Shown: one piece after another, positions 12,573 to 47,578 of the stretch
Layout of the letters: each line of letters opens with the position of its first letter
Numbering within the stretch: the first letter of the stretch is position 1
Source of the DNA: Pseudomonas sp. LD120
GTDB taxonomy: Bacteria > Pseudomonadota > Gammaproteobacteria > Pseudomonadales > Pseudomonadaceae
Direction of reading: 5' to 3'
DNA length: 64,000 bases
Assembly: GCF_009861525.1 (NCBI RefSeq)
Contig: NZ_WVHL01000005.1
Location: 2,542,001 to 2,606,000 of the forward strand
Program-made: the position numbers and the translations under genes
The notes under the pieces: generated by a model
Told to the model about the DNA's origin: nothing
Database searches by the model: none
What the model saw: the letters and a program-made list of their open reading frames with translations, nothing else

Positions 12573-12584
12573 TAGGGCGCATGC

Positions 12585-12746: not shown

Positions 12747-12773
12747 CAACGAACATCGTGAAAGGTAGTTTTG

Positions 12774-13772: not shown

Positions 13773-13836
13773 TATAAAGCCATATTCCTATTTGATATCA
13801 TTGCGCACATTTATGGTTATTAATCAGGGAGATCGC

Positions 13837-14973: not shown

Positions 14974-15058
14974 GTGATCCGTTTTTTAATGAAGTTTTAA
15001 TGGCGTACGTTAGGTCCACTACTATCGGCCACAGGAAGTAAATAAGGATGTCTATATA

Positions 15059-18953: not shown

Positions 18954-19705
18954 ACGCGCAAATGCCTGAGGCAGGTACCCATAAGCCGAAGGTGCTGTCC
19001 GTCTTTGATTTTGATGGCACGCTGACACGACACGACAGTTTTGTCCCGTTCCTGAAGTTCGCCTTTGGCAAGCGAGTGTTTGCTTCTCGAATGGTGCGCC
19101 TGCTGCCTGCAGCAATTCGTTATGCGAGCCGAGGCATGACACGTGACGAACTGAAGGCGGTACTTATTGCGACTTTTTTGACGGGTGTGAAAGTCGAATG
19201 GGTTGAAGCCAAGGCGATCGAGTTTCACGCTGCTTGTTGGAACCGCTTGATGCGCCCTGCGGGGGTGAAATCAGTGGCTGCTGAAGTGGCCTCAGGGGCC
19301 CAGGTTACGCTCTGTTCGGCCTCGCCAGTCCTGGTTCTCGCACCTTTTGCAAAGACGCTGGGGATCAAGCTGATCGCTACGGAGCTCGAGGTGCGTGAGG
19401 GTTACTTGACCGGTGGGATCAGTGGCAACAATTGTCGATGTGAAGCGAAGGTGCTTCGACTCGAAGCCATTTACGGGCCGCTCGGTCAGTATCATGTGCG
19501 CGCCTGGGGTGATACCCGTGGGGACCACGAGCTGTTATCGGCGGCCCAAGATGCTCATTGGCGGCATTTCCATCCGGCCTGGCAACGCGGACGCGGGAAT
19601 GTCGCAAAGCGTGTCCGCGGCGTTAATTGTAATGAAGCAACGATCAATCTAGTGGTGGGCGCATGCGCCCCCAATCTGAAGCACGACGATCATCAAGGAG
19701 CGTAA
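18950..19705 (+). CDS. HAD-superfamily phosphatase of the Ter module (second, SerB/HAD-IB-like)
   Basis: 251 residues with motif I FDFDGTLTRHDSF, motif II CSASP, the lysine of CEAKVLRL and motif IV AWGDTRGDHELL. The fold resembles HAD-IB phosphatases (SerB, CicA) with a helical cap after motif I. It is the last gene of the biosynthetic half and lies just before terZ on the same transcript. The last about 40 residues are poorly conserved-looking. Confidence 0.83.
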   Translation: MNAQMPEAGTHKPKVLSVFDFDGTLTRHDSFVPFLKFAFGKRVFASRMVRLLPAAIRYASRGMTRDELKAVLIATFLTGVKVEWVEAKAIEFHAACWNRLMRPAGVKSVAAEVASGAQVTLCSASPVLVLAPFAKTLGIKLIATELEVREGYLTGGISGNNCRCEAKVLRLEAIYGPLGQYHVRAWGDTRGDHELLSAAQDAHWRHFHPAWQRGRGNVAKRVRGVNCNEATINLVVGACAPNLKHDDHQGA

Positions 19706-19707
19706 AG

Positions 19708-20295
19708 ATGGCACTTACATTGTCGAAGAACCAATCGATTTCCCTGGAAAAAACCGGCGGTGCTGGTTTGAGTAAAATCACCTTGGGTTTGGGTTGGGAC
19801 CCGGTCAAGAGTGGATTTTTTGGCAAGTTGTTGGGCGGTGGTTCGGAGATCGACCTCGATGCCTCTTGCATTCTGTTTGATGAAAACCTGAAGCCGGTCG
19901 ACCTGGTCTGGTTCCGTCAGTTGACCTCCAAAGATGGTTCGATCAAGCACTCAGGCGATAACCGCACGGGGGAGGGCAGTGGTGATGATGAGTCGATCTA
20001 TGTCGACTTGCAGCAGCTACCCGCCTCGATCAAGTATCTAGCACTGACGTGCAACAGCTTCACAGGGCAGAATTTCGAAAAGGTCGAAAACGCGTACTGC
20101 CGGATTCTGGATACCGCGAAAAACACCGAGTTGGCCCGTTTCAATCTCTCCGACAAAGGTCTTCACACCGGTGTAGTGATGGCAAGTCTGACTCGCGGCC
20201 AGCAAGGCTGGGAATTCAAGGCCATCGGCAAAGCTACCAACGGGCGCACCGCCGATGATCTGGTGAGCCTGGCGGTTGAGGCGCTGCGCGGATGA
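19708..20295 (+). CDS. terZ: Tellurium-resistance protein TerZ (TerD family)
   Basis: 195 residues of the TerD beta-sandwich family with paired Ca-binding motifs: IDLDASCILFDE and SGDNRTGEGSGDDESIYVDL. The insert GFFGKLLGGGSE after WDPVK distinguishes TerZ-like from TerD/TerE paralogues. Ter proteins assemble at the inner face of the membrane around TerC and confer resistance to tellurite, phage and other stress. ATG 19708 follows AAGGAG. It starts the terZABCDE block. Confidence 0.93.
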   Translation: MALTLSKNQSISLEKTGGAGLSKITLGLGWDPVKSGFFGKLLGGGSEIDLDASCILFDENLKPVDLVWFRQLTSKDGSIKHSGDNRTGEGSGDDESIYVDLQQLPASIKYLALTCNSFTGQNFEKVENAYCRILDTAKNTELARFNLSDKGLHTGVVMASLTRGQQGWEFKAIGKATNGRTADDLVSLAVEALRG

Positions 20296-21467
20296 CGGCT
20301 CTGGTACCGGGTGGCAATGCGCCGGTCGCCACCGGCTCGATTCGCGTGGATGTCGTGTACGCCCCGCTTCCGGGGGCTGATATCGACGTTTCCGCCTTTG
20401 CTTTGTTGTCGTCAGGCAAAGTGAAGAATGACTCTGCAATGTGCTTTTACGGTCAGCCCAATATCTTGGCCGGCGCGGTGCAACTGATCGATGCATCCAC
20501 CGGGCGGGCCAGCTTCACGGTGGACCTGAGTCGTCTGGCCGATGAAGTGGATAAGGTTGCGCTGACGGCGACGATCCACGAGAACAAAGCCAATTTCGAA
20601 CGGGTTTCCTCGCTGGTTGTCACGCTCAGCGGTGGTATTGAGTCCCGGATTTCCACCACTGGTATGACGGAAACGGCATTGATCCTTGGCGAGTTCTATC
20701 GTCGCCAAGGTCAGTGGAAGTATCGCTGCGTCGCCCAGGGTTTTGCCGGTGGCCTGGCGCCCCTTGCGACCCACTTTGGTGTGGAAATTGCCGATACGCC
20801 TGCCCCCGCCGCCGCTCCCGCGCCACAACCTGCCCCCGCCCCGCAAGTGGCTCCGGTGCCCAAGCCAACGGTCAGCCTAAGCAAGGTTACGTTGGACAAG
20901 TCCCGTTCGAGCATCAGTCTTGAGAAGTCGGCTTCTGGTTTTGGCTTGATTAAAGTCAACCTCAATTGGAACCAGCGTAAGTCAGGCGGTTTCTTCGCGA
21001 GAAGCAAATCCATTGACCTTGATGTCGGGTGCTTATTTGAAATGCAGGACGGCCATAAAGGTGTCGTGCAAGCGCTCGGCAATGCTTTTGGCAGTCTGAG
21101 CGAGGAACCCTACGTACAGTTGATGGGGGACGATCGGACGGGCTCTGTTACCGACGGTGAGTGGATTCATATCAACGGCCAGCAATGGAGTCGTATCCGC
21201 CGCATTTTGGTGTATGCGTTCATCTACGATGGTGCGCCCAACTGGGCCGAGACTGACGGTGTCGTGACCATATTCATTCCAGGTCAGCCTGAGATCGAAG
21301 TGCGATTGAATGAGGAGGGCGGTCGGCTGGGCTGTTGTGCGATCGCCCTGCTTGAAAATGACAATGGGGCTGTCAAAGTCACGAGAAGGGTCGACTTCCA
21401 TAAGTCTCAAGCACCTATGGACAAGGCCTACAACTGGGGAATGCGCTGGTCTGCAGGCTCCAAGTAA
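20292..21467 (+). CDS. terA: Tellurium-resistance protein TerA
   Basis: 391 residues with two TerD-like domains joined by a Pro/Ala linker (residues about 176-198, rich in APAPAP). The first domain ends ILGEFYRRQGQWKYRCVAQG. The second begins after LDKSRSSISLEK and has IDLDVGCLFEMQDG and GDDRTGSVTDGEWI calcium-site-like loops. Its ATG overlaps the terZ stop. It is the standard terA position and length. Confidence 0.92.
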   Translation: MTALVPGGNAPVATGSIRVDVVYAPLPGADIDVSAFALLSSGKVKNDSAMCFYGQPNILAGAVQLIDASTGRASFTVDLSRLADEVDKVALTATIHENKANFERVSSLVVTLSGGIESRISTTGMTETALILGEFYRRQGQWKYRCVAQGFAGGLAPLATHFGVEIADTPAPAAAPAPQPAPAPQVAPVPKPTVSLSKVTLDKSRSSISLEKSASGFGLIKVNLNWNQRKSGGFFARSKSIDLDVGCLFEMQDGHKGVVQALGNAFGSLSEEPYVQLMGDDRTGSVTDGEWIHINGQQWSRIRRILVYAFIYDGAPNWAETDGVVTIFIPGQPEIEVRLNEEGGRLGCCAIALLENDNGAVKVTRRVDFHKSQAPMDKAYNWGMRWSAGSK

Positions 21468-21515
21468 ATAATCGCAACGTCGGGGGCTTCGGCCCCTCAT
21501 CAAGAGGATTACCCA

Positions 21516-21965
21516 ATGCTGGGATGGTTGAAAACGAATGCAGAGGCGGCGCGTAATGCGCTGACCAATGAAGTCACGAAGTTCAAAAACAGGAACTTCA
21601 TGGAGGCAACGGCCGCGGGCTGCGCGATGATCGCTGCAGCTGACGGTGAGGTGTCGTCCGCTGAAAAAATGAAGATGACGGGCTTCATCAACAACTCACC
21701 TGAGCTGAAGGTTTTCAACCTGAGCGATGTGATCAAGTCTTTCAATGATGCCGTCGGCAAGTTTGAATTCGACTTTGCAATTGGCCAGGCCGAGGCGCTG
21801 AAAACCATCAACAAGATCAAAGGCAATGACGGCGCTTCCCGGCTGCTGGTCCGTGTTGCCTGTGCAATTGGTTCCTCTGATGGGGATTTTGATGAAAAGG
21901 AAAAAGCGGCTTGCCGGCTGATCTGTCTCGAGCTGGGTCTCAACCCTGCTGATTTCGAACTCTAA
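21516..21965 (+). CDS. terB: Tellurium-resistance protein TerB
   Basis: 149 residues, helical TerB family, with two pseudo-symmetric acidic metal motifs: IAAADGEVSSAEK near residue 45 and GSSDGDFDEKEK near residue 125. TerB is a soluble partner of TerC and TerD. ATG 21516 follows AAGAGGA. A GC hairpin (GGGGGC/GCCCCT region near 21481-21495) lies in the 48-bp terA-terB gap and may affect expression. Confidence 0.94.
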   Translation: MLGWLKTNAEAARNALTNEVTKFKNRNFMEATAAGCAMIAAADGEVSSAEKMKMTGFINNSPELKVFNLSDVIKSFNDAVGKFEFDFAIGQAEALKTINKIKGNDGASRLLVRVACAIGSSDGDFDEKEKAACRLICLELGLNPADFEL

Positions 21966-21976
21966 GGTACTCGACT

Positions 21977-23008
21977 GTGGAAGCTACTCATATCGGTTTT
22001 CCCCCGCTGACCATGGCGGTTTTCGTTGCTATTGCAGTGGGCGCGCTGCTGCTGGACATGGTCACCCACCGTGGTGATAAACCGATTTCGCTCACTAAGG
22101 CATCAGTCTGGTCGGTTTTCTGGATTTTGATATCGCTGGGTTTTGCCGCGTTTCTGTACTACCAGCATGGCGCTGAAGTTGCGAGCCTGTTCGTCACCGG
22201 TTATGCCTTGGAAAAGGTCTTGAGCGTCGATAACTTGTTCGTGTTCATGGCGATTTTTGCCTGGTTCAAGGTGCCAGATGGCCTTCGTCATCGCGTGCTG
22301 TATTGGGGCATCATCGGCGCAATCGTGTTCCGTGGCGTCTTCGTGGCCATCGGTACAGGGCTTTTGGCCTTCGGACCATGGGTCGAGATCGTCTTCGCGG
22401 TCATCGTGGCGTGGACTGCAATCATGATGCTCAGAAGCGGGGGAGATGATGGTGAGGAGGACTACTCCACTCACATGGCATATCGTTTTGCCAAAAAACT
22501 GTTCCCGGTCTGGCCCAAGCTGCATGGCAATCGTTTCTTCGTACGTCGTAAAGAACTTGAAATCGAGTTGACCAAGCCTGAAAACAAAGGGATGAGCCTG
22601 GCCGCGAAAGGGGGGCTGTTCGCAACTCCGCTGTTCCTGTGTTTGGTGGTGGCTGAAGTCTCTGACGTGCTCTTCGCATTTGACTCCGTTCCGGCGGTAA
22701 TCGCCGTAAGTCGTGAGCCGTTGATCGTCTATTCGGCGATGCTTTTCGCTATCCTTGGCCTGCGTACCATGTATTTTGTTCTGGAGGCACTTAAGCGCTA
22801 TCTGGTTCATCTTGAGAAAGCGGTCATTGCGCTGCTGTTTTTCATCGCCATCAAGTTAGGCCTGAACGCAACTGACCACATTTTCCATCACGGCTACAAG
22901 ATTGGTGCAAACACCAGTCTGATGATTGTGATGGTTGTGCTTCTCATTGGAGTCGTCGCCAGCGTTATCTTCCCTGAAAAGGAAGACTCGCAGGCTGAGT
23001 CCAATTAA
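21977..23008 (+). CDS. terC: Tellurium-resistance integral membrane protein TerC
   Basis: 343 residues with about nine membrane helices and the TerC family motifs LEKVLSVDNLFVF (membrane Asp/Asn) and VLFAFDSVPAVIAV. The central cytoplasmic loop (about residues 160-210) contains the usual HGNRFFVRRKE segment. GTG at 21977 is the only start that includes the first membrane helix. TerC is the membrane anchor of the Ter complex and may bind or move metal ions. Confidence 0.95.
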   Translation: MEATHIGFPPLTMAVFVAIAVGALLLDMVTHRGDKPISLTKASVWSVFWILISLGFAAFLYYQHGAEVASLFVTGYALEKVLSVDNLFVFMAIFAWFKVPDGLRHRVLYWGIIGAIVFRGVFVAIGTGLLAFGPWVEIVFAVIVAWTAIMMLRSGGDDGEEDYSTHMAYRFAKKLFPVWPKLHGNRFFVRRKELEIELTKPENKGMSLAAKGGLFATPLFLCLVVAEVSDVLFAFDSVPAVIAVSREPLIVYSAMLFAILGLRTMYFVLEALKRYLVHLEKAVIALLFFIAIKLGLNATDHIFHHGYKIGANTSLMIVMVVLLIGVVASVIFPEKEDSQAESN

Positions 23009-23039
23009 TTCAAACGGTAACCCAAAAGGAGTTGTACAC

Positions 23040-23615
23040 ATGGCTTTGACACTTCAGAAAGGTGGCAACCTGTCGTTGTCCAAAACTGACCCATCGCTGA
23101 CCAAGCTGATTGTTGGCCTGGGCTGGGATCCGCGTGCGACCGATGGTACTGAGTTTGACCTGGATGCCAGTGCGTTCCTTCTGAATGCCACGGGTAAAGT
23201 TCGTGGTGAGCAGGACTTCATTTTCTACAACCAACTGAAAAGCGTGGACGGCTCTGTCGAGCATACCGGCGACAACCGCACTGGCGCCGGCGACGGCGAC
23301 GATGAGGTGATCAAGGTTGACCTGAGCCGTGTGCCGGGTGATATCGACAAGATCTCGTTCACCGTTACCATCCATGATGCTGAGCTGCGTAAGCAGAACT
23401 TCGGCCAGGTTGGTGGTGCATTCATCCGTATTGTTAACGAAGTGACTGGCACTGAAGTCGTGCGTTACGACCTGGCAGAAGACGCTTCGACCGAAACCGC
23501 AATGATCTTCGCCGAGCTGTATCGCAATAACGGTGAATGGAAATTCCGTGCAATCGGTCAAGGCTATGCTGGCGGCCTGAAATCGGTAGCCAATTCGTTC
23601 GGTATGAATTTCTAA
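23040..23615 (+). CDS. terD: Tellurium-resistance protein TerD
   Basis: 191 residues, canonical Ter[20 protein letters not shown], then HTGDNRTGAGDGDDEVIKVDL (two Ca-binding loops) and IFAELYRNNGEWKFRAIGQG. Preceded by AAAGGAG. Paralogue of the following terE; the shared MALTL/MAVSL N-termini show a tandem duplication. Cytoplasmic, acting with TerC and TerB. Confidence 0.96.
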   Translation: MALTLQKGGNLSLSKTDPSLTKLIVGLGWDPRATDGTEFDLDASAFLLNATGKVRGEQDFIFYNQLKSVDGSVEHTGDNRTGAGDGDDEVIKVDLSRVPGDIDKISFTVTIHDAELRKQNFGQVGGAFIRIVNEVTGTEVVRYDLAEDASTETAMIFAELYRNNGEWKFRAIGQGYAGGLKSVANSFGMNF

Positions 23616-23647
23616 CCCTACACCTAAATTAAGTAAGGAATATCCAC

Positions 23648-24226
23648 ATGGCTGTAAGCCTGACCAAAGGCGGTAACGTCTCGCTGTCCAAAGAAGCACC
23701 TGGCCTGTCCGAAGTGATTGTGGGTCTGGGTTGGGATCCGCGAGTGACTGATGGTACCGAGTTCGACCTGGACGCCTCGGTGTTCATCGTTGGCGAGAAC
23801 GGTAAAGTGCTTGATGACAACAGCTTCATTTTCTACAACAACAAAAAGTCTACCGATGGTTCCGTCGAGCACATGGGCGATAACCGCTCGGGCCAAGGCG
23901 AAGGTGATGATGAGCAGGTGACTGTCAAGCTCACCGGTCTGGCTGCCACAGTGAAAAAGCTGGTTTTCGCCGTGACCATTCACGAAGCAGACATTCGCAA
24001 GCAGAACTTTGGTCAAGTGGCCAATGCTTACATTCGTGTTGTCAACAAGGCTGATGGCAAAGAGTTGGCTCGCTATGACTTGAGCGAAGATGCATCGACT
24101 GAAACCGCGATGATCTTTGGTGAGTTGTATCGTGCCGGTGAAGAGTTCAAGTTCAAGGCCATTGGCCAAGGTTTCGCTGGTGGCTTGAAGCCTCTGGCCG
24201 AATCCCACGGTGTCAGCATCGGCTAA
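23648..24226 (+). CDS. terE: Tellurium-resistance protein TerE
   Basis: 192 residues, TerD family, with [17 protein letters not shown] and [19 protein letters not shown] calcium-binding loops. AAGGAA precedes ATG 23648. It is the last gene of the operon; no terF, terY or terW follows, and a strong terminator stands 57 bases downstream. Confidence 0.95.
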
Positions 24227-24282
24227 TGGCCGCTACTGAGTTAGCCCTCCGTCACACACAGGGCTAATGTCAGAGCCATCCC

Positions 24283-24321
24283 ACACCCTGCGAGGGCCAA
24301 GCGCTCGCAGGGTGTTTTTTT
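24283..24321 (+). terminator. Rho-independent terminator of the Ter operon
   Basis: A 12-bp perfect stem (ACACCCTGCGAG, 24283-24294; CTCGCAGGGTGT, 24304-24315) followed by seven T. A smaller hairpin, TTAGCCCT/AGGGCTAA at 24241-24267, precedes it. Confidence 0.93.
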
Positions 24322-24517
24322 GAATGCTCCAGTGACGGTATCGATCGCCAGCGATCGTTACGCCGCCGATTACTCCACCAGGGGGCTTTCAGACTCACCA
24401 GCTCAATAGCGCCACGCCATGTACTTGTTGCCCCATGACTGAGGCGAATGTCGGCCATTCGCCCGGTTACCACGCATTGATGATCTACCAGCGACGCCTG
24501 CTCTTATGCCGCCAGGC

Positions 24518-26074
24518 CTAAACCTTGAAGCGTCCTACCAGCTTTTCCAGTTCGTGACCCAGGCGCGCCAGTTCGGTGCTTGAGGATGCGGTTTCCTGGC
24601 AGGTGCTTGCGGTCTGGTCGGAGATGTTACGCACGTTGATCACGCTGCGATTGATTTCATCGGTGACGGTGCTTTGCTGCTCGGCGGCGGTGGCAATCTG
24701 CTGATTCATTGATTGAATGATGGACACTTTGCTCGTGATGTTCTCCAGGGCGCTGACCGCACGATGGGTAAACGCTACGCTGCTGTCACTGAGCAGCAGG
24801 CTGTTCTCCATGCCTGAGGCAACGGCATGCGTGCCGCTTTGCACGCCGGCAACCAGGCTTTCGATTTCTTCTGTGGAGCGCTGGGTGCGCAGGGCGAGAT
24901 GACGGACCTCGTCCGCGACCACCGCAAAACCACGACCGGCCTCGCCAGCACGGGCCGCTTCAATGGCGGCGTTCAGAGCCAACAGGTTGGTTTGCTGGGC
25001 TACGGCCTTGATCACATCCAGTACGCCACCAATTCTGTCGCTTTGCTCCTTGAGGTGGCTTACCGCGTCTGCCGATCGATTGAGTTCTTCCGCCAAGCGC
25101 TTGATCTGTGTAATGGCCTCACCCACGATCTGTTCTCCCTCGCACGCTTGCTGATCGGCGATGGTCGCGGCAGCCGAGGCCTCTTCGGCATTGCGAGCGA
25201 CATTTTGCACGGTGGCGGTCATTTCGTTCATCGCCGTGGCGACATGATCCGTTTCGGCTTTCTGGTTGTTGACCCCCGTATAGGTCTGTTCGGTGACGGT
25301 CGACAGCTGTTCGGCGGCGCTGGCCACTTGGATGACCCCGGAGCGGATGCCGTCGATCAACTGGTGAAGGTTGAGCAGCATCTGCTGCAGACCGGATTGC
25401 AGTTGGCCCAACTCGTCACGCCGGCTGATCAGTAGGTGCTCGCTCAAATCACCACTGGCGATTCGATTCACCGCCTGGAGGGTGTGCTGCAGTGGGCTGA
25501 CGATCTGCCGGGTAATGCCCCACGCGGCCAGTGTGCCGAGGATCAGCGCCAGCGCTGCGACCAGGCTCAGCAGGGTCTTGGCGGATCTCGCATCCCCATC
25601 GCGTTTGGCGTTTTGCGACTCGATGAGTGTCTGCGTTGTTTTCAGTAGCAGGTCACCCAATTGCCCCATGCGTTTGAACAGGGGAGGCTGGTCAGCCTCG
25701 GGGTTGCTCAGTTCATGCAACAGCTGTGCGTATTCATTGACCGAGTTGATCTGTTGTTGAAGCAGTTGTTGATCAAACGTGGAGACGAAGTCTTCCTTGA
25801 TGTTGTCTAGATGGACAGCCAGGTTCCCCAAGGTTTTCTGCAAGGGCTGATAGGCATCTGCTTGCGACTCTGTCCCCATGCGCAAGCGAATGATTCGCAG
25901 GTCTTTGGTGTAATCACTGATTTGCGCGATTTTCTCAATCTTGAGTCCGCGCTCGGTCAACGTAGCAATGGCGTACCATCCGGTGAATGTCAGAAGCAGC
26001 GCCAGCCCTAGCACCAGGCCGAACCCCAGGCTCAATTTAGCGCTGACACGGATATTGCTGAACCAGCCGAACAT
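24518..26074 (-). CDS. Methyl-accepting chemotaxis protein
   Basis: 518 residues. An N-terminal membrane helix (residues about 12-33) is followed by a small helical-bundle periplasmic domain rather than Cache (to about 185), then a second membrane helix ([20 protein letters not shown]), a HAMP domain ([20 protein letters not shown]) and a C-terminal signalling domain with the hairpin tip [20 protein letters not shown]. It signals to CheA/CheW at the cell pole. Ligand unknown. It faces the Ter operon tail to tail and may be unrelated to it. No C-terminal CheR-binding pentapeptide is seen. Confidence 0.94.
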
Positions 26075-26512
26075 AAGAACTCCAAGCAGTAACAGGGGGA
26101 TTGAACATGGCGTCCTGAGTGTCGACCCGAGATATCATTGCTTTAATTGAATATCCGCTATTAACGCGTTCTAACTGGAAGTTAGGGAGAAATATTAAAA
26201 AATATCGGAGTCTATAAGTCCGTTGATGAATACCTTACTGAAAGGATACAGCTCCAAGCCTGTCTGACGTCTGTGGATATTTAAGATCAGCAACTAACGG
26301 TACTTTTCAGCGCGAACAATGCCGGCCAGTACTTTAGTCCAATGTTCATCTTTGATGGGTTCTGCGGGGGCTCTATCAACAGGGGAGCGCCTGAAAAATA
26401 CCCGCAAGCGTGGTCGCCGATTTAATGTGAAAGCTCTGTCGAAGTGCTCAGTGCCCTGCTATTCAATCGCCGATTAGCCAACCGAGTGCTGTAGCAAAGG
26501 CTCGATGAATTA
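26075..26512. other. AT-richer intergenic region upstream of the chemoreceptor gene
   Basis: No gene-like frame on either strand. It should contain the promoter of the chemoreceptor gene, but I could not assign boxes with confidence. Confidence 0.4.
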
Positions 26513-26566
26513 GCATCGGCATCGGCATCGGCATCGGCATCGGCATCGGCATCGGCATCGGCATCG
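26513..26566 (+). repeat. Hexanucleotide tandem repeat (GCATCG) x 9
   Basis: Nine perfect head-to-tail copies of GCATCG, 54 bp. The array lies 187 bp upstream of the isochorismatase-like start and outside any credible gene. It is a likely variable-number locus. Because the unit is 6 bp, copy changes would alter spacing rather than reading frame. Confidence 0.97.
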
Positions 26567-26753
26567 TGGCTGGTTGGCGACGCCCCCGTGTCTGGCAGGC
26601 AAAGGACGCTGCGCTGAGGCGTTGCGCGCGAGCGACCTCAAGGAGCTGTGCCCAAACGGCACAGATCCTGTGTCGACGGCCCTGTGTTCACGCTTGCATG
26701 GCCTGCCTACCATCGCTTCAGTGATTGACATTCAACTGAAGAGGACCTACCCC

Positions 26754-27440
26754 ATGCAGCATTTCACGCGTCGATTCTTGGCCGCTTGTGCGTTTTCCGG
26801 CATTGTTGCCAGCGGTGTGGCCATGGCTAACGACCAGCCCACCATTCGCGCCCTGTCCGGCGTAACACCGATCAAGCAATTGCCGGTGAACAAGACCGCT
26901 TTGTTGGTCATCGACTTCCAGAATGAGTACTTCAGCGGCCGTATGCCGATCCCGGATGGTGCCGCCGCGCTGGCGAAAACCCGCGAACTGATCAAGTTTG
27001 CCGACAGTCACCAAATGCCTGTCTATCATGTGCAGCACGTCGCGCCCGCGGGCTCGGCGGTGTTTGCCATCGACGGCGAGACGGTGAAGTTCCATAAAGA
27101 TATGCAACCGCGGGCCAAGGATGTGGTGTTGCAGAAGACCACAGTCAGTGTGTTCGGCAGTACTGACCTGAACGCGCAGTTGAAAAAGGCCGGAATCGAC
27201 ACCCTGATCATCAGTGGCCTGATGACCCATGCTTGCGTGGCCGGTGCTGCTCGTGATGCGGCCCCGCTGGGGTACAACGTGCTGGTGGCCTCCGATGCAA
27301 CGGCGACGCGCGCGATTACCCGCTTTAACGGCCAGAGCGTCGATAAGGATTCCCTGCATAACGCTGCCCTGGCAGAAGTCGAAGACACCTTTGGCGATGT
27401 CATGAGCACTGAACACATCATCAACCTGCCAGTGCGTTGA
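26754..27440 (+). CDS. Exported isochorismatase-like cysteine hydrolase
   Basis: 228 residues. A signal peptide (RRFLAACAFSGIVASGVAMA, cleavage near residue 24) is followed by the isochorismatase-fold hydrolase domain: catalytic Asp in LLVIDFQNEY, Lys in VLQKTTVSVF, and nucleophilic Cys in LMTHACVAGAARDA. Members cleave amides, ureas or vinyl ethers; a periplasmic location is less usual. An upstream open frame from 26574 is not used because ATG 26754 follows GAAGAGG and begins the signal peptide. The adjacent LysR gene, 7 bases downstream on the same strand, may regulate it. Confidence 0.88.
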   Translation: MQHFTRRFLAACAFSGIVASGVAMANDQPTIRALSGVTPIKQLPVNKTALLVIDFQNEYFSGRMPIPDGAAALAKTRELIKFADSHQMPVYHVQHVAPAGSAVFAIDGETVKFHKDMQPRAKDVVLQKTTVSVFGSTDLNAQLKKAGIDTLIISGLMTHACVAGAARDAAPLGYNVLVASDATATRAITRFNGQSVDKDSLHNAALAEVEDTFGDVMSTEHIINLPVR

Positions 27441-27447
27441 TCCGAAA

Positions 27448-28338
27448 ATGAATCAGTTACACGCCATGCGTACCTTCTGTTGCATCGTTGAGTCCCAGGG
27501 TTTTTCCGCGGCGGCAGAGCGGCTGGGCACGGTGCACTCGTCGGTATCACGTCAGTTGCAGCACTTGGAGACGGCGCTGGGCGTGCGCTTGATTCATCGC
27601 AATACCCGCCGCTTGAGCCTGACCGAAGCGGGTGAGCACTATTATGCAGCGTGCGTGGACATTCTCGAACGTATCGACAGTGCCGCCTTGGCGGTAAGCC
27701 ATGAGCAAGACCGTCCTTCGGGGGTGTTGCGTATCAGCGCCCCGTTGGTCATTGGCACTCTGGAGCTGGCCAATTGGCTGCCGGCGTTCCAGCAGCGTTA
27801 TCCCGATGTGCAGATAGACCTCTCGTGCTCGGACCCTTTCGTTGATCTGATCGCCGAGCGTTTTGACGTGGCGTTACGCATTTGCGGACCACTTGCGGAC
27901 AGCAGCCTGGTGGCGCGTCGGCTGCATGTGTCGCCGATGGTGATGGTGGCATCCAGTGCTTATGTTCAGCGTATGGGCTTGCCCCGCAGTGCGCAGGATC
28001 TGGCCAGCCATCAGTGGTTGAGCTATAGCGCTTCGACAAACTCCTGGCGGTTGCAGCCGGAGCAGGGTGAAGCTGTGGTGTTCGTGCCGGGTCCTGGCAT
28101 GCGTTCGGACAGCATTACTGCCTTGTACGCTGCGGCGCTGGCCGGCGTCGGGATCGCGGCCTTTACCCTGGCCACTGTGCAAGCGGATCTGCGGGCCGGC
28201 CGTCTGGTGCGCATCCTGCCAGAGTTCACGTTGGGCCTGCGCCATTACTACGCGTTGTACCCGCATGCCCGGCACCTGCCGGCCAAGGTGCGCGCCTTTG
28301 TGGAGTTCATGGCGCAGTGCTACCGCGCTGAATCCTGA
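27448..28338 (+). CDS. LysR-family transcriptional regulator
   Basis: 296 residues. The N-terminal HTH (FCCIVESQGFSAAAERLGTVHSSVSRQLQHLE, residues 10-41) is of the CrgA/DsdC-like LysR group, followed by an effector domain with LRISAPLVIG and the FDVALRICG segment typical of that group. It directly follows the isochorismatase-like gene and may form an operon with it, which is less common than divergent LysR placement. Confidence 0.9.
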   Translation: MNQLHAMRTFCCIVESQGFSAAAERLGTVHSSVSRQLQHLETALGVRLIHRNTRRLSLTEAGEHYYAACVDILERIDSAALAVSHEQDRPSGVLRISAPLVIGTLELANWLPAFQQRYPDVQIDLSCSDPFVDLIAERFDVALRICGPLADSSLVARRLHVSPMVMVASSAYVQRMGLPRSAQDLASHQWLSYSASTNSWRLQPEQGEAVVFVPGPGMRSDSITALYAAALAGVGIAAFTLATVQADLRAGRLVRILPEFTLGLRHYYALYPHARHLPAKVRAFVEFMAQCYRAES

Positions 28339-41927: not shown

Positions 41928-42050
41928 TTATTTTTCACACAGATTTACAGCGTGTGGCCCCCATGCGAGCCCGTGATCGCGGCTGCCGATGCTGGCAATG
42001 ACCTGGCCAACGGGTGGCAACCATCGGTGTGCGTTGAGCATTTCATTCAT
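41928..42050 (-). pseudogene. Truncated third LuxR-type regulator
   Basis: From ATG 42048-42050 the frame reads MNEMLNAHRWLPPVGQVIAS followed by IGSRDHG. This matches the first about 26 residues of regulator 2 (MDEMMNSQVLFPHIGKVIAS, then TGSRRFP). It then diverges and stops at 41928. The whole DNA-binding domain is missing. The homologous upstream block is also present (42146-42204). It is a deletion remnant that places a LuxR-type gene on both sides of the biosynthetic cluster. Confidence 0.75.
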
Positions 42051-42145
42051 GAACGTGAGGGTGTGACAGGACACAGGACACAGGACAGCGTTACAGCGAT
42101 GGGCACGCGTGCAACTGACTGGTCTGCGGCTTTGTCCCGAACGAC

Positions 42146-42204
42146 AAAGGATCGCCTCCTCAGTACAGGGTTTACGGGGTGTTTGACGAAGCGCGCAAAA
42201 TCTT
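42146..42204 (-). repeat. Upstream block of the truncated LuxR-type gene
   Basis: AAAGGATCGCC..., CAGTACAGGG, GCGCAAAATCTT in the same order as 31325-31388 upstream of the intact copy. A relic promoter region, about 100 bases from the truncated start. Confidence 0.55.
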
Positions 42205-42297
42205 GCGCAGCGGACGGCGGGCACTGCCCGGGCTTGGACGGCGGCATTGATATCGGCACCGCCGCGCCAGCGGGCGCGGCGGCGCAACGGGCGGCGA

Positions 42298-43764
42298 TTA
42301 CAGGCGCGGCTGCTCCGGGGGCAGGCCCAGCAACTGGTGCAGGGTGTTGATCAGGGCTTGTTGGCGCAGCCGGTCCTCCTGGTGCCGGGCTTCGGCGGCG
42401 GCGACATCGGCGTGGCAGTGCGGGCAGGTGCTCTCAACGGCGTGGATGTACTCCAGGCAATTACGGCACAGGGCCAGGCGCGGCGGGATGCGGCCTTCGG
42501 CGGGGGCTGCCTGCCCCTGGTTGACCCAGGCCAGCTTGATCACCTGACCGCTGTCGCTGACTCTGGTCATGGCTTCGCCGGTGTCGATGCGCTCGGTGAT
42601 CAGGTCGAAGCGGCCCACGGAGAAGGACGCCGGGCCCGCGTCCTCGAGTTTGACGATGCGCTCGCGCAGGCCTTTTTTCTGCAGGTCCAGGGCCCGGTAG
42701 TGGCAATAGGGGTTGTTGCCCGGTTTGCCCAGCAGCGAGTGCGAGGTCCAGGTGCAGCCGCCACGGCAGACGTCGTTGTAGTAGCAGCTGCGGCAATAGC
42801 CCCACAGATCGTCCATCGAGCGCAGGCGGCCGAAATGCATGCCTTCGCTGTAGTGCCAGATGTCGTGCAGGCTCATGTTGCGCACGTTGCCGCCGGAGAA
42901 CCCCACGGTGGCCAGGGACGGACAACCCTTGACCGTGCCGTCGGCTTCCAGGGCCAGCACCGTCTGCCCGGCGGCGCAGCCGGTCCAGTGCACCCGGTCG
43001 TCGCCGAAGCCGCGCCACATGTGTTCGTAGGGGCCGTAGTAGCCGATGTTGTTGCCGATGTTCATCAGCAGGCCGCGCTCGTTGCCTTCGCGGTACAGGC
43101 GCGCCAGCAGCGGCATGACCTCCAGCAGTTGGTAGGGCTGCATCAGCAGTTCGGGGTGATCCACGGCGTTGCCCATGGCCACGGTCAGCTGGATCTGCCA
43201 GTGCTTGGCGCCGGCGTCGATGATCAGGTCCATCAGGGCCGGCAGGTCGGGCAGGGTGGCGGCGCCGATCTGCGTGTTGACGCTGATCTTGAGCCCGGCC
43301 TGCCTGGCCCGGTGCAGGGTGTCCAGGGCCTTGTCGAACGAGCCCGGCACATTGCGCACCGCGTCGTGCAGCGGCGCCAAGCCGTCCAGGGACACGCCGA
43401 CGCCATCGAGCCCGGCGTCCACTGCGGCCTGCATCTTGGCCGGGGTCAGGTTGCGACCGCCGGTCTGGATCGCCACATACATGCCGTGGTCGTGGATAGC
43501 CTGGATCAGTCGCGTCCAGTCCTTGCGCAAATAGGCTTCGCCACCGATCAGGGTAATTTCCCGGGTGCCCAAGGCGGCCAGTGAATCGATCACCGCCAGG
43601 CATTCCTCGGTGCTCAGTTCACCGGGGCGCCTATGCCCGGCCCGGGAGCCGCAGTGCAGGCACTTGAGGTCGCAGGCGAGGGTGATTTCCCAGACCACGT
43701 GCACCGGCACATAGCGCTTGAGGTCGTTTTCGCTGAGGTAGCGGGCGGGGAGACGGTCTGACAT
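42298..43764 (-). CDS. Radical SAM/SPASM peptide maturase for GDL-motif substrates
   Basis: 488 residues from ATG 43764 (MSDRLPARYLSENDL). The radical SAM cluster motif CDLKCLHC (Cys31, Cys35, Cys38) is followed by LIGGEAYLRKDW and VGVSLDG. The SPASM region has GCPSLATVG and CRSCYYNDVCRGGC, ligating auxiliary Fe-S clusters. The C-terminus adds a small zinc ribbon (CRNCLEYIHAVESTCPHC). It belongs with maturases named for association with GDL-motif peptides. Three GDL-motif genes precede it on the same strand, 134 bp upstream at the nearest. It should install a radical modification on them. No protease, leader-binding domain or exporter gene is adjacent. Confidence 0.86.
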   Translation of the reverse strand: MSDRLPARYLSENDLKRYVPVHVVWEITLACDLKCLHCGSRAGHRRPGELSTEECLAVIDSLAALGTREITLIGGEAYLRKDWTRLIQAIHDHGMYVAIQTGGRNLTPAKMQAAVDAGLDGVGVSLDGLAPLHDAVRNVPGSFDKALDTLHRARQAGLKISVNTQIGAATLPDLPALMDLIIDAGAKHWQIQLTVAMGNAVDHPELLMQPYQLLEVMPLLARLYREGNERGLLMNIGNNIGYYGPYEHMWRGFGDDRVHWTGCAAGQTVLALEADGTVKGCPSLATVGFSGGNVRNMSLHDIWHYSEGMHFGRLRSMDDLWGYCRSCYYNDVCRGGCTWTSHSLLGKPGNNPYCHYRALDLQKKGLRERIVKLEDAGPASFSVGRFDLITERIDTGEAMTRVSDSGQVIKLAWVNQGQAAPAEGRIPPRLALCRNCLEYIHAVESTCPHCHADVAAAEARHQEDRLRQQALINTLHQLLGLPPEQPRL

Positions 43765-43898
43765 GAAAGATCCTTGCGCACCCAGCGGTGCGCGGCAGCA
43801 AGCCATTGAAACAGGCGCGCCTTCCGCGGCTGGCGAGGGCGCGATCGGTTTGGCCAAGTCGGGGCCGCCCGATGACGGCCGGCCCCGCTGGCCTGGAC

Positions 43899-44498
43899 TC
43901 AGCGGCGCTCCAGGCGGCTGATTTCTGCCTGCAACTGCTGCGCCGCCTGGCTCAGGTTTTCACTGTTGGCCAGTTGCTGCTCGCCCTGGGCCACCAGCGC
44001 CTTGAGCCGCGCCAGGTCGCCGCTGGTCTGGGCCTCCTGCAGCGCCACCGCGTACAGCGGGTGCATGTGGGGCTGGCCGGCCTGGACTGCGCGCTCGCCG
44101 GGCGACTGCTCCACCGCTGCCTGGCTCACGGCGGCGTGTTGCACCACATGCCAATGACCCTGGTACTGGTACTTGTAGCTGGCGAAGCCGCTGGCCCAGT
44201 CGAGACCGAGGATGCCCTGCAGATGGAACGTCTCGGCGATCTGGCTGGTGGGACCGCTGGGGTTGCCGGCCAGGCTGAGGATAATGTGGCCCTCGCTGGA
44301 CGGATCAAGCTTGACCTGGGAGTAGTCGCCCCAGACATCGGCGAGGACATTCACCGGTGGCGAGGTGCTCTGGGTCACCCGAGCCACGCCGCTGACTTTT
44401 TTCTGCGGGGTGTTGACCAGCAGGTCGAGGGTCAGCACCGGCGCTCCGATCACAGGGTTGGCGACGATGAGGCGGGTATGGAACAGTCCGATTGTCAT
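43899..44498 (-). CDS. DUF1842-DUF1843-like GDL-motif protein 1 (putative maturase substrate)
   Basis: 199 residues. Residues 1-120 form a beta-rich DUF1842-type domain (LFHTRLIVANPVIGAPVLTL, then DVWGDYSQVKL). A linker leads to a C-terminal DUF1843-type helix pair: PLYAVALQEAQTSGDLARLK (GDL at 160-162), ending EISRLERR. AAGGAG precedes ATG 44498. It is a paralogue of the next upstream gene. Large for a RiPP precursor, so the modified part is probably the C-terminal segment. Function unknown. Confidence 0.78.
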   Translation of the reverse strand: MTIGLFHTRLIVANPVIGAPVLTLDLLVNTPQKKVSGVARVTQSTSPPVNVLADVWGDYSQVKLDPSSEGHIILSLAGNPSGPTSQIAETFHLQGILGLDWASGFASYKYQYQGHWHVVQHAAVSQAAVEQSPGERAVQAGQPHMHPLYAVALQEAQTSGDLARLKALVAQGEQQLANSENLSQAAQQLQAEISRLERR

Positions 44499-44550
44499 GC
44501 TGCAACTCCTTATCTGGATAGAAGGCATCAAGTTCGATGGATGGCCTTGA

Positions 44551-45186
44551 TCAGCGGCGTTCTTGCTTCTCGATCTCGGCCTTGGCGGCGTCCAGCGCGG
44601 TGCGGATCAGCGGCAGCTGTTCCAGTTGCTGGGTGGCCACCCGATGCAGGCTCTTCATCTGTGCCAGATCGCCGCTGGCGATGGCGCCGTGAATCGGCCC
44701 GCCATACAGCGCGGCGTTGGTGCTGTTCACGGCGCTGTACTGGCCCTGGTGCTTGGGAGTCGACAGGGTGCTGGACTGCACCGTCTCCTGCAGATGGGCG
44801 GGCACCTGATTGACCGAAACCCAGTTGTGGCCGTTGAAGTACTGGTAGTTGGCGATGCCTTCCTTCCAGTCGTCACTGACCACCAGGTGCAGCTTGAAGG
44901 TGATGATCGAGTTCGAGCCGGGGCCGCCCTGATTGCCCTGGGCGGTGATGAGGATCTTGCTGGTGCTGGGTGGCATGACCGTAAGGTAGGTGTACTGACC
45001 CCAGACATCGCTGTGCAGGTCCAGGGGCGGGTTGATCGCCTGGGTGATGGTCGAACCGCCGCGCACACTGTGATCGGGGGTATAGACCAGCAGGTTGAGG
45101 ATCAGACTGGGCGCCCCGGACTGAGCGGTACCGATGCGATAGCTCAGGGGGAACAGACCTTCGGCGTGGGAATTGGAACCGGACAT
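44551..45186 (-). CDS. DUF1842-DUF1843-like GDL-motif protein 2 (putative maturase substrate)
   Basis: 211 residues. N-terminal DUF1842-type domain (GAPSLILNLLVYTP, DVWGQYTYLTV, NYQYFNGHNW) parallels protein 1. The C-terminal part has ALYGGPIHGAIASGDLAQMK (GDL at 172-174) and ends EIEKQERR. ATG 45186 has GGAGG 8 bases upstream and is preferred to ATG 45201. It lies 52 bases upstream of protein 1 in the operon. Confidence 0.78.
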   Translation of the reverse strand: MSGSNSHAEGLFPLSYRIGTAQSGAPSLILNLLVYTPDHSVRGGSTITQAINPPLDLHSDVWGQYTYLTVMPPSTSKILITAQGNQGGPGSNSIITFKLHLVVSDDWKEGIANYQYFNGHNWVSVNQVPAHLQETVQSSTLSTPKHQGQYSAVNSTNAALYGGPIHGAIASGDLAQMKSLHRVATQQLEQLPLIRTALDAAKAEIEKQERR

Positions 45187-45222
45187 ATGCTTTGCCTCCA
45201 TTCAATGACGGGGAAACAGCGG

Positions 45223-45411
45223 TCAGTGCTGCTCCAGCCGGGCGACTTCCTTGGCCAGCTGTTCGTAGGCGCTTTTCAGATCCTTGGGTTCGTCGCTCTT
45301 CGGATCGCGCTTGGCCAGCAGGGCTTTCATCTGGGGTAGCTGCCCTTCGGCGATGGCCGACTGGATCGCGACTCCGTAGGGGACAACCGTGTGTTGCGAA
45401 GTGGGGCTCAT
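45223..45411 (-). CDS. Stand-alone DUF1843-like small protein (GQL variant, putative precursor)
   Basis: 62 residues: VPYGVAIQSAIAEGQLPQMK near the N-terminus, where the GDL triplet is GQL (23-25), then a helical tail ending EVARLEQH. It corresponds to the C-terminal domain of the two larger proteins without the DUF1842 part. First gene of the four-gene operon; GGAAGG precedes ATG 45411. The size fits a classic modified-peptide precursor. Confidence 0.78.
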   Translation of the reverse strand: MSPTSQHTVVPYGVAIQSAIAEGQLPQMKALLAKRDPKSDEPKDLKSAYEQLAKEVARLEQH

Positions 45412-45651
45412 GGTGTGTGCCTTCCGTGGGGTTAGGGGGGCTGCGCTACTCGGCAGCCTTTGCAGTTAAGCAGCGCGGATGGAGTTGGCGGGGTAATGGC
45501 ACATTGATTTTGTGGATTTCCGACAGGTGGATTCACAGAGGTAAGGGGTTGATTTTGTGGAAATTCCAAAGGGCGATATGCAAGGGGGAGGTGAGTGCGG
45601 ATGGCGATAGAGGGGGGCTGGTGGTTTCGCTTTTGCAGCGGTGGGTGGGGG

Positions 45652-45895
45652 ACATGTCCGTGCTGCGGTCACGGTGGTTTGGGGGGCCGATCTTGCGGCG
45701 AGTGGGATGGGTTACATGTCCGTTGCTGCGGGTGCGGTTGCTTTGGGGCTCGATCTTGCGGCGAGTGGGATGGGTTACATGTCCGTTGCTGCGGGTGCGG
45801 TTGCTTTGGGGCTCGATCTTGCGGCGAGTGGGATGGGGTACATATCCGTTGCTGCGGTAACGGCTGCTTAGGGTTTCGCCCTTACGGCGAGTCCT
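45652..45895 (+). repeat. 63-bp tandem repeat array
   Basis: About four head-to-tail units starting at 45652, 45714, 45777 and 45840. The second and third units are identical or nearly so; the outer ones diverge. Each begins ACATGTCCGT (ACATATCCGT in the last) and includes GATCTTGCGGCGAGTGGG. Related units lie inverted beyond the IS4 element at 47468-47578. The array is 240 bp upstream of the GDL operon's first gene. The flanks 45412-45651 and 45896-46042 hold no gene. Confidence 0.92.
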
Positions 45896-46042: not shown

Positions 46043-47467
46043 AGCCATCCCTTTCAAGGTCTTGGGTAAAATGCGCTGAAATTCAGTCAGGAAGACCCGA
46101 GCGATGTGGGCCGATGTACTAGCGCGATTCGAGAAAAAAGCACCTGCCAGCGTGATGGCCAAATTGGCCTTGGAGCAAGCCATTGCGCCGGAGTGGGTCG
46201 ATCAGGTTTTCGAAGAGCACCGACAACGGCAGTACTCTCGCGAATTGCTGTTCTCGACCATCGTCAAGCTCATGTCCCTTGTTTCCTTGGGCTTGCGGCC
46301 GTCACTGCACGCTGCAGCCAGGCAGCTTGAAGAGCTTCCGGTCAGCCTCGCGGCTCTTTACGACAATATCAGCCGTACCGAACCTGCGCTGTTGCGAGCG
46401 TTGATCACAGGTTGTGCTCAGCGTCTGGCACCGACGATCAAGGAACTGGGTTGTTCAGCCATGCTTGCCGACTGGCAAGTTCGGGTGGTCGATGGCAGCC
46501 ACCTGGCATCTACTGAAAAGCGCCTTGGCGCGCTGCGCCAAGAACGGGGGGCGGCTCGCCCCGGTTTTTCGGTTGTGGTCTACGACCCCGATCTGGATCA
46601 AGTAATTGACCTCCAACCCTGCGAAGACGCCTATGCGAGTGAGCGTGTCTGCGTCTTGCCGCTACTGGCCGAGGCCAAGGCCAATCAGGTTTGGATCGCT
46701 GATCGGCTCTACTGCACGCTTCCTGTAATGGAGGCTTGTGAGCAGGTAAAAACGTCGTTTGTCATTCGTCAGCAAGCCAAGCACCCACGCCTGATTCAGG
46801 AGGGTGAGTGGCAAGCACCTGCGCCTGTTGCAACAGGTACGGTGCGTGAGCAGACCATCGAAGTGAAAGGCGGTCATTTATGGCGTCGTGTTGAACTGAC
46901 GCTTCATTCGCCAAACGACTCAGGTGATAGCTGTTTGATGTTCTGGAGCAATCTGCCCGAGCACATCAGCGCACAACAGATCGCGGATTTTTATCGTCGT
47001 CGCTGGAGTATTGAAGGGATGTTCCAACGACTGGAAGCGATTCTGGAAAGTGAAATTGAAACCCTCGGCAGTCCGCGGGCAGCCTTGCTTGGCTTCACCA
47101 CTGCCGTGCTGGCGTACAACGTTTTGGCCTTGCTCAAACGCAGTGTCGAACAAGCTCACCGGGATTCTCTGCCCGAGGGTTGGGAGGCTTCGCTCTATCA
47201 TTTGGCGATTCAGGTCAGGGCTGGCTATGAGGGCATGCAGATCGCTTTGCCTAGCGAGTATCTGCCGACTGTTTCAATGGAAGAACTCGCCCAACGCCTG
47301 CTGGGATTGGCCAAGAACATCCAACCCAAGCAAGTCGCCAAAAGCCCACGAGGCCCCAAGGTACCCAAGCCCAAAACATGGGTGCAAGGGACGGCCGTGA
47401 ATGCCCATGTTTCAACCGATCGAGTCATCAAGGCCGCCAAAACGAAAAGACCTTGAAAGGGATGGCT
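46043..47467 (+). mobile_element. Complete IS4-family insertion sequence
   Basis: 1425 bp with perfect 21-bp terminal inverted repeats (46043-46063 and 47447-47467, outer end AGCCATCCCTTTCAAGG). A 5-bp target duplication GTAAG is at 46038-46042 and 47468-47472. Rejoining the flanks restores CCGCTGTAAGAGCGG, a small hairpin of the local repeat family, so the element entered the hairpin loop. One intact transposase gene. Confidence 0.94.
46104..47456 (+). CDS. IS4-family transposase
   Basis: 450 residues with the DDE triad of the IS4 group: Asp in VVDGSHLAS, Asp in VWIADRLYC, and the Y-R-E signature FYRRRWSIEGMFQRLEAI. Full length. The C-terminal about 40 residues are basic (KSPRGPKVPKPKTW). 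The stop lies 11 bases before the outer end of the right inverted repeat. Confidence 0.95.
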   Translation: MWADVLARFEKKAPASVMAKLALEQAIAPEWVDQVFEEHRQRQYSRELLFSTIVKLMSLVSLGLRPSLHAAARQLEELPVSLAALYDNISRTEPALLRALITGCAQRLAPTIKELGCSAMLADWQVRVVDGSHLASTEKRLGALRQERGAARPGFSVVVYDPDLDQVIDLQPCEDAYASERVCVLPLLAEAKANQVWIADRLYCTLPVMEACEQVKTSFVIRQQAKHPRLIQEGEWQAPAPVATGTVREQTIEVKGGHLWRRVELTLHSPNDSGDSCLMFWSNLPEHISAQQIADFYRRRWSIEGMFQRLEAILESEIETLGSPRAALLGFTTAVLAYNVLALLKRSVEQAHRDSLPEGWEASLYHLAIQVRAGYEGMQIALPSEYLPTVSMEELAQRLLGLAKNIQPKQVAKSPRGPKVPKPKTWVQGTAVNAHVSTDRVIKAAKTKRP

Positions 47468-47578
47468 GTAAGAGCGGAACCGCCAGCGGCCGCACCCGCA
47501 AGAACGGATATGTACCCAAACCCGCTGTAAAAGCGGAACCGCCAGTAGCCGCACCCGCAGCACCGGATATGTCCCCCT
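47468..47578 (-). repeat. Two further units of the local repeat family, inverted
   Basis: Units starting CTGTAAGAGCGGAACCGCC (47466) and CTGTAAAAGCGGAACCGCC (47525), period 59, each ending CGGATATGTNCCC. This is the reverse complement of the GGACATATCCG...GGTTCCGC family seen on the other side of the IS4 element. Confidence 0.8.

Follow-up and report, generated by a model that had tools for sequence, protein, structure and literature searches.

Evidence Pointing to an Invariant Tyrosine as the Reaction Site of a GDL-Associated Radical SAM Maturase and Its DUF1842/DUF1843 Substrates in Pseudomonas sp. LD120

A Maturase Unit with Three Putative Substrates

We analysed a 64,000-nucleotide stretch of the genome of Pseudomonas sp. 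LD120 (contig NZ_WVHL01000005.1; hereafter the window), which encodes a radical S-adenosylmethionine (SAM)/SPASM maturase and three putative protein substrates with DUF1842 and DUF1843 domains. The sequence evidence points to an invariant tyrosine of DUF1843 as the reaction site, and not to the GDL motif. On this evidence, the maturase is probably a splicease-like enzyme that would excise tyramine at this tyrosine from folded, probably intracellular proteins, and we hold this reading with a fair degree of confidence.

The unit consists of four consecutive genes in the same direction, as the initial annotation had stated. They are the minus-strand open reading frames (ORFs) 45411-45223, 45186-44551, 44498-43899 and 43764-42298. 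Substrate 1 is a stand-alone DUF1843 protein of 62 residues with V-P-Y12-G and G-Q-L. Substrate 2 (211 residues; Pfam, fold search and structure model) has a DUF1842 barrel, a linker and a DUF1843 domain, with A-L-Y161-G-G-P-I and G-D-L at residues 172-174. Substrate 3 (199 residues) likewise joins DUF1842 to DUF1843, with P-L-Y149-A and G-D-L at residues 160-162. The last gene encodes the maturase of 488 residues, which belongs to TIGR03913.

The domain calls made earlier from the letters were borne out by Pfam. DUF1843 (PF08898) was found in substrates 1-3 (E = 3e-11, 9.4e-13 and 1.5e-16; 44.2, 49.0 and 61.2 bits, above the gathering cut-off of 23.3), and DUF1842 (PF08896) in substrates 2 and 3 (E = 6.4e-35 and 2.3e-34; 120.2 and 118.4 bits, above the cut-off of 23). 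The maturase matched Radical_SAM (E = 5.5e-25) and SPASM (E = 2e-7). The family membership and the gene arrangement of the unit are far beyond chance.

Tyrosine and GDL in the Substrates

Motif columns could be read in 230 distinct DUF1843 domains from five phyla. The tyrosine was present in 229 of them, [LMP]-Y-[GA] in 223 and the exact GDL in 113. The residue before the tyrosine was L, P or M with nearly no exception, and the residue after it was G (0.53) or A (0.44), rarely M or D. The next most conserved columns were an Ala (0.93) and a Leu (0.86), and the three GDL columns reached 0.79 for G, 0.80 for D and 0.79 for L. The exceptions were V-Y-D (locus L087), L-Y-D (L114), L-H-A in one of the three copies of L115, and four copies with Met after the tyrosine. 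The L115 copy (5586-5753), from a Crocinitomicaceae metagenome-assembled genome (MAG), has His in place of Tyr, so that the proposed site is naturally missing there. In the window, column conservation places the codon of the invariant tyrosine at 45376-45378 in substrate 1 (the P-Y-G copy), at 44704-44706 in substrate 2 (L-Y-G) and at 44052-44054 in substrate 3 (L-Y-A), all on the minus strand; the last two are the proposed splice sites.

The initial annotation had read the shared motif as P-x-Y-(A/G), which describes substrate 3 only (P-L-Y-A). Substrate 1 has V-P-Y-G and substrate 2 has A-L-Y-G, and the element common to all three is X-Y-(G/A), where X is P or L. The segment (S/E)-G-(D/Q)-L-x2-(L/M)-K is indeed present in the three substrates, and the C-terminal E-(I/V)...ER ending in two of them, with substrate 1 ending in EVARLEQH. 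GDL had also been taken as the key motif, and the GQL of substrate 1 as a natural test of it. This view was not supported, with an exact GDL in 113 of the 230 domains versus the tyrosine in 229.

Loci without GDL gave a further indication. Three Myxococcota loci (L125, L133 and L153) have no DUF1843 and no GDL, and the ORF directly upstream of the enzyme (176-211 residues) carries a pair of tyrosine motifs: RPMYGIFI and AMYGVVF in L125, RALYGVFI and RPLYGVFI in L133, and RPLYGVFI and AMYGVVL in L153. Two matches to [LMP]YG[VIL], a pattern picked post hoc, occurred in 0 of 20,000 shuffles of each ORF. The L125 enzyme passes the TIGR03913 cut-off of 591.75 bits (595.7), and those of L153 (590.5) and L133 (581.5) lie just under it. 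The enzyme and the tyrosine motif persist here though GDL and the remaining DUF1843 are lost. On conservation and these loci, GDL was rejected as the main reading of the modification site. In three Chromobacterium loci (L145, L154 and L169), two genes hold the trio and GDL is degenerate; P-Y-G is N-terminal in one DUF1842 protein, and L/M-Y-A lies near both C-termini.

A structure model of substrate 2 fits an accessible tyrosine and a structural role of GDL. Strands were predicted at residues 11-132, where the predicted local distance difference test (pLDDT) is mostly about 90 or more, followed by a disordered linker at 140-160 (pLDDT < 50) and low-confidence helices at 162-171 and 174-210. 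Tyr161 is predicted at the border of linker and helix, and Gly172-Asp173-Leu174 forms the turn between the two helices. The barrel matched the solved structure 8t0b in a fold search, in which only the 8t0b family was significant and other matches had E = 0.07 or worse.

Sactipeptides and ranthipeptides are defined by Cys donors in the precursor. Cys is absent from the three substrates and was found in 5 of 278 domain rows. Thioether chemistry of this kind was rejected for the window because the substrates are without Cys.

The Maturase and Its Closest Enzyme Family

The window maturase scored 1024.4 bits against TIGR03913 over residues 3-479, and it is thus a member of this family. The second-best NCBIfam model was TIGR04103, the nif11-class maturase 3 (435.3 bits), and the third reached 167 bits. 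From its matching anatomy, we take TIGR04103 (IPR026482) to be the family of PlpX, a part of the PlpXY splicease whose spliceotides were reportedly described by Morinaka in 2018. PlpX is described as a radical SAM enzyme that works together with the RRE protein PlpY; its precursors bear Nif11 or nitrile-hydratase-like leaders, and tyramine is removed from their Xaa-Tyr-Gly motif (PMC11002830). The mass loss is given as 135.0757 Da (PMC10533398).

An alignment of four enzymes that span three phyla, with members from Bacteroidota and Pseudomonadota and the cyanobacterial (Nostoc) TIGR04103 enzyme, had 122 invariant columns, at 45-48% identity to the first. A tree of 66 hand-chosen rows separated a GDL side (44 rows, 99/99) from TIGR04103 and its relatives (12 rows, 100/98), with a join at 94/72. 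Within the GDL side, the earliest branch is that of the three Myxococcota enzymes (89/87 for the remainder), and two TIGR04103-like enzymes (L188 and L189) fall outside both sides.

In the window, the radical SAM cluster motif C31-x3-C35-x2-C38 is encoded at 43651-43674. The SPASM domain follows in two parts, C263-x12-G276-x4-C281 (42922-42978) and C324-x2-C327-x5-C333-x3-C337-x16-C354 (42703-42795). All Cys of CxxxCxxC and of the seven-Cys SPASM are invariant in an alignment of 35 relatives, and this combination is the pattern of a PlpXY-type splicease. The predicted C-terminal zinc ribbon also stood: C433, C436, C447 and C450 (42415-42468) are nearly invariant in the same alignment. The enzyme model had a mean pLDDT of 86.7, and its closest solved folds were PqqE and SkfB (23% identity each).

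Relatives were collected by scanning genome contigs, for which the alignment was headed by an enzyme of the Bacteroidota, and the best 80 of 552 were described. A C-terminal Cys4-type ribbon was found in 76 of these 80. In the other four (L125, L133, L150 and L153) it is encoded just downstream in another frame, which may reflect a separate gene or a sequence error.

TIGR04103 was compared through eight loci above the cut-off in 146 sampled genomes and one Nostoc plasmid. All nine have X-Y-G in a precursor-like ORF (PLYG in seven), and this ORF was identified as Nif11 by Pfam in L177 and by annotation in L094, whereas in the remaining loci the assignment goes by likeness. The next gene in all nine is a small ORF of 56-73 residues, according to a profile search for which seven of them were the seeds. 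By position and size it appears PlpY-like. The published PlpXY tags are GGPIRPLYGLPI and GAVAAGYGVVFPG, and in the second, G probably replaces a natural Met (PMC10533398). The tag RPLYGLPI resembles VIPLYGVPIQ and ALYGGPIH of DUF1843, and AAGYGVVF resembles the Myxococcota motif AMYGVVF.

Some loci near this family have features of their own. In a cyanobacterial sample, an ORF after a TIGR04103-like enzyme (L185, 455-1060, minus strand) has five QPKYGLPM (KYGLPM) repeats and is a possible multi-site K-Y-G precursor. On a Tropicibacter oceani plasmid (L093; 1112-1693 and 4725-6347), the enzyme scores alike against TIGR03913 and TIGR04103 and has an N-terminal Cys4 ribbon-like stretch; other radical SAM genes adjoin it, and DUF1843 was not found there.

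Distribution and Enzyme-Substrate Pairing

DUF1843 occurred in 22 of 298 sampled Pseudomonas genomes, with exactly three copies in each, and in 3 of 398 genomes of a phylum sample. The maturase adjoined DUF1843 in all 23 different genomes found by DUF1843 in the genus and phylum searches. An enzyme above the TIGR03913 cut-off was present in 3 of 148 genomes of a family sample, all in Pseudomonas. The best 80 of 552 relatives came from six phyla (Pseudomonadota 46, Bacteroidota 20, Acidobacteriota 8, Myxococcota 3, Cyanobacteriota 2 and Vulcanimicrobiota 1), and DUF1843 lay beside the enzyme in 77 of them, the exceptions being the three Myxococcota. The Pseudomonas loci L066-L088 partly duplicate other loci, so that counts mixing both sets are redundant.

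These adjacencies lend good support to the proposed pairing of one maturase with three substrates. The co-occurrence check suggested earlier was run, and DUF1843 genes commonly lacking a maturase did not turn up in the 23 genomes. No orphan DUF1843 was found at E = 0.001 in the 23 whole genomes, a set selected for carrying the enzyme, and in each of them the copies share one contig.

DUF1842 was found in 34 of the best 80 loci, namely 21 of Pseudomonas, nine of Chromobacteriaceae and four of the five of Burkholderiaceae. Because it is confined to these groups among the best 80 of 552, DUF1842 looks like a late addition to the substrate. The ancestral substrate was probably a bare hairpin of about 55-65 residues.

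Mobile elements were also searched. The viral search gave one contig, whose cluster matches Chromobacterium sphagni (L155) in ORF lengths and scores. A plasmid search with substrate 3 found nothing, though three Azospirillum plasmids carry the enzyme; the two examined (L090 and L091) have DUF1843-only substrates. On both, the genes after the cassette are a polyamine ABC transporter operon and one for agmatine deiminase.

Several lineages have their own gene arrangement. In Undibacterium and a close genus (L140, L143, L158 and L160), a tandem DUF1843 is encoded in an ORF of 146-150 residues before the enzyme and two more copies in the ORF after it; there are five copies with exactly one P-Y-G. 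DUF1842 is not present in the Undibacterium loci and in L148. In the Bacteroidota (L096-L115), the maturase gene ends close to the start of a class I methyltransferase-like gene, at a distance of -13 to +5 nt. This arrangement was found in 16 of 20 Bacteroidota loci, three of which were profile seeds, and on an Aureibacter plasmid (L092), which suggests further tailoring there. A weaker relative lies downstream of an Oscillatoria enzyme (L122).

The P-Y-G Copy

Exactly one copy with P-Y-G was found in 84 of the 89 loci with at least two copies (redundant set). The remaining multi-copy loci have two (L126 and L130) or none (L117 and L142), and one locus (L157) is unreadable. By a hand count in the best 80 of 552, P-Y-G was present in 18 of 19 genus-level groups with a multi-copy locus, the exception being a Xanthobacteraceae MAG. 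Gly followed Pro-Tyr in 91 of 91 copies and Leu-Tyr in 47 of 172 (redundant set). Single-copy loci have L-Y-x or M-Y-x, and three have P-Y-G alone (L119, L120 and L137). It is possible that the P-Y-G copy serves in docking or regulation.

Alternative Explanations

Several points weigh against a splicease-like reaction. Homology between radical SAM enzymes does not guarantee a common chemistry. The TIGR04103 score of the window enzyme is below the cut-off of that model (725), so it is not a member; the two sides of the tree join with 94/72 support, and the program warned of long branches. A PlpY-like ORF was not found at any GDL-type locus examined, where the best other match had E = 0.57. The published motif is X-Y-G, yet 44% of distinct domains have Ala after the tyrosine, and the loci L087 and L114 have Asp there; in the window, X-Y-G is present in two of the three substrates, since substrate 3 has L-Y-A. 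No clear X-Y-G precursor was found within 1.5 kb on each side of four of five TIGR04103-like enzymes (L186, L188, L189 and L190), nor on the Tropicibacter oceani plasmid. The DUF1843 part of the substrate 2 model has a pLDDT of about 54-70. Finally, a DUF1842 gene apart from the unit is listed in PMC12114271 and in PMC12322963.

The enzyme may act on the tyrosine by other radical chemistry without splicing of the backbone, such as oxidation, decarboxylation-like cleavage or a C-C or C-O crosslink to a neighbour. The Gly or Ala that follows an invariant Tyr, the missing PlpY-like gene and the closest folds, PqqE and SkfB, which are enzymes of different chemistry, would all suit this explanation. 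However, the closest sequence family is TIGR04103, with its X-Y-G precursors, and many copies retain the context P-[LM]-Y-G-x-x-[IF], for which a simple oxidation would have no need. No other column of the domain is as conserved as the tyrosine. We therefore regard such chemistry as rather unlikely. A reaction or recognition centred on GDL or its Asp, with GQL as a natural loss of modification, is least probable of all: the NCBI family name and the three GDL columns speak for it, but an exact GDL is found in only about half of the domains, it is gone from the upstream ORFs of L125, L133 and L153 though the L125 enzyme passes its cut-off, and the model places the segment, at low confidence, in a turn between helices.

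The DUF1843 proteins might also be partners of the enzyme (chaperone, scaffold or regulator), with the true target encoded elsewhere. Self-assembly was proposed for DUF1843 paralogues in an earlier study, as cited in PMC10994174, and as a rule one of the copies in a locus has Pro ahead of the tyrosine, an odd splice site. The same source describes the Burkholderia relative Q63NT7 as likely monomeric, with no higher oligomer seen; moreover, there are usually at least two tyrosine-bearing copies per enzyme, and the tyrosine motif is kept when the rest changes. This makes a partner role improbable. More plausible, though we would still not expect it, is that only the L/M-Y-[GA] copies are spliced and that the P-Y-G copy stays unspliced and serves as a decoy, a docking partner or an inhibitor, which is compatible with tyramine excision at the others. 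The constancy of one P-Y-G copy in 18 of 19 groups and its invariable Gly agree with such a division, but P-Y-G stands alone in three loci, is doubled in two and is missing from another two.

Proposed Reaction and Role

If tyramine excision is correct, the maturase would dock on the helical hairpin formed by DUF1843, with GDL as the turn. It would then reach the tyrosine in the flexible segment immediately before the first helix and form a radical there. The tyramine part of the tyrosine (C8H9NO, -135.0757 Da) would be removed and the backbone rejoined, which would leave an electrophilic alpha-ketoamide, an unnatural residue, in the folded protein. The P-Y-G copy would have a separate role. 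The product would probably remain intracellular, attached to its folded DUF1842 carrier, since a conserved protease or exporter neighbour was not seen.

According to reviews, spliceotides inhibit proteases, and we therefore propose a role for the electrophilic ketoamide. Its targets could be proteases, which it would inhibit or capture, or some other nucleophile, and this step is the least certain. Expression data from relatives were also considered. For Chromobacterium subtsugae, PMC12114271 compares 9 h with 18 h cultures, lists the three DUF1842/DUF1843 genes with log2 changes of 4.9 to 5.3, and assigns their operon to the XYE system. In Burkholderia thailandensis, DUF1842 and DUF1843 genes were among the top up-regulated at entry into stationary phase (PMC12322963). 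We propose a growth-phase-induced intracellular protein carrying an electrophilic ketoamide, the last step being conjectural.

The full picture would be that a backbone-spliced alpha-keto-beta-amino residue is made in folded, non-exported proteins of several phyla, beyond the short secreted peptides, by a PlpY-independent zinc-ribbon splicease on a portable DUF1843 hairpin tag, with a conserved division of labour between P-Y-G and L/M-Y-[A/G] copies. Taken as a whole, it remains tentative, with somewhat less than an even chance of being right. If true, a widely distributed family named after a motif would gain a specific reaction, the loss of 135.0757 Da at one tyrosine, and the DUF1842 structural family would be given a part in carrying an electrophilic residue. 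A biochemical meaning would also emerge for the genes of Chromobacterium and B. thailandensis that are induced by density or in stationary phase. A PlpY-independent splicease with a 50-residue tag would also be useful in site-specific ketoamide labelling of proteins.

Leader and Surroundings of the Unit

The leader of substrate 1 (45420-45458, minus strand) has a hairpin at 45458-45439 and a CANGGANG-type Shine-Dalgarno region at 45429-45420, both shared with many Pseudomonas relatives. In the 18 leaders compared, 91% of cells were paired, and two of the six pairs were changed on both sides in 13 of them; left out were three Pseudomonas leaders with another hairpin and two near-copies. The hairpin and a CACGGAAG Shine-Dalgarno region were found in 18 of 23 Pseudomonas loci, a raw count with no chance control. 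The CANGGANG type is that of RsmA/CsrA sites, and the unit may be under Gac/Rsm control. Scans for sigma-70 promoters and terminators at 42000-45700 found none, and an Rfam scan of the window gave no match at gathering score.

For the long ORFs flanking the unit, relatives occur in no more than 4 of 23 other loci, and any one flanking ORF is shared by 5 of 24 loci at most. Because the neighbours are not conserved among the 24 loci, no exporter or protease seems to be part of the unit in Pseudomonas. Tandem arrays of 63 bp (45633-45892) and 59 bp (47465-47576) bracket an ORF of 450 residues (46104-47456, plus strand), which by eye resembles an insertion-sequence transposase. At 12001-28000 of the window, the G+C content is 0.53-0.57 versus about 0.62-0.67 on both sides, as in a mobile or foreign region.

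Comparison with Known Systems

The pairing of the maturase with DUF1843, the name GDL and the DUF1842 structure are already public and not new. In the open literature searched on DUF1842/DUF1843, GDL and splicease topics, by titles and passages, we found no description of the chemistry and no paper joining DUF1842/DUF1843 with spliceases; the survey of Scott et al. 2022 in Chem was outside this search. That survey reportedly concerns widespread ribosomal beta-amino acids, and there is a considerable chance that it already covers the GDL-associated family.

The solved DUF1842 structures 8t0b, 8t1m and 8t1n (Q63NT7, PMC10994174) belong to the same two-domain family, with a barrel 45% identical to that of substrate 2 in the fold search. 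The DUF1843 part is unresolved in that work, for which the protein was made in E. coli, and a radical SAM enzyme has 0 occurrences in its text (PMC10994174). The XYE system likewise combines a radical SAM/SPASM maturase with small substrates. The window maturase had 75 NCBIfam matches, however, and the best 25 of them include no XYE model; within those 25 the XYE assignment made for Chromobacterium is unsupported.

The PlpXY-type splicease is the nearest known system. The Bacteroidota enzyme and the Nostoc member of its family TIGR04103 are 45% identical in the core; the systems also share like residues round the tyrosine and X-Y-G in the adjacent precursor, which is found as P-Y-G in substrate 1 and L-Y-G in substrate 2. 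In contrast, TIGR04103 loci have a PlpY-like gene where the GDL type has its C-terminal zinc ribbon, and we infer that the ribbon takes the place of PlpY. The PlpXY precursors have a Nif11 or nitrile-hydratase-like leader, whereas no such Pfam domain is found in the window substrates, in which a predicted helical hairpin of 50 residues stands alone or on a folded barrel. DUF1843 loci also differ in often having Ala after the tyrosine and usually several copies, one of them P-Y-G. As for TIGR03913, the window enzyme is a full-length member beside DUF1843. The model is named for the GDL motif and specifies no reaction, whereas the evidence of this analysis points to the tyrosine as the site.

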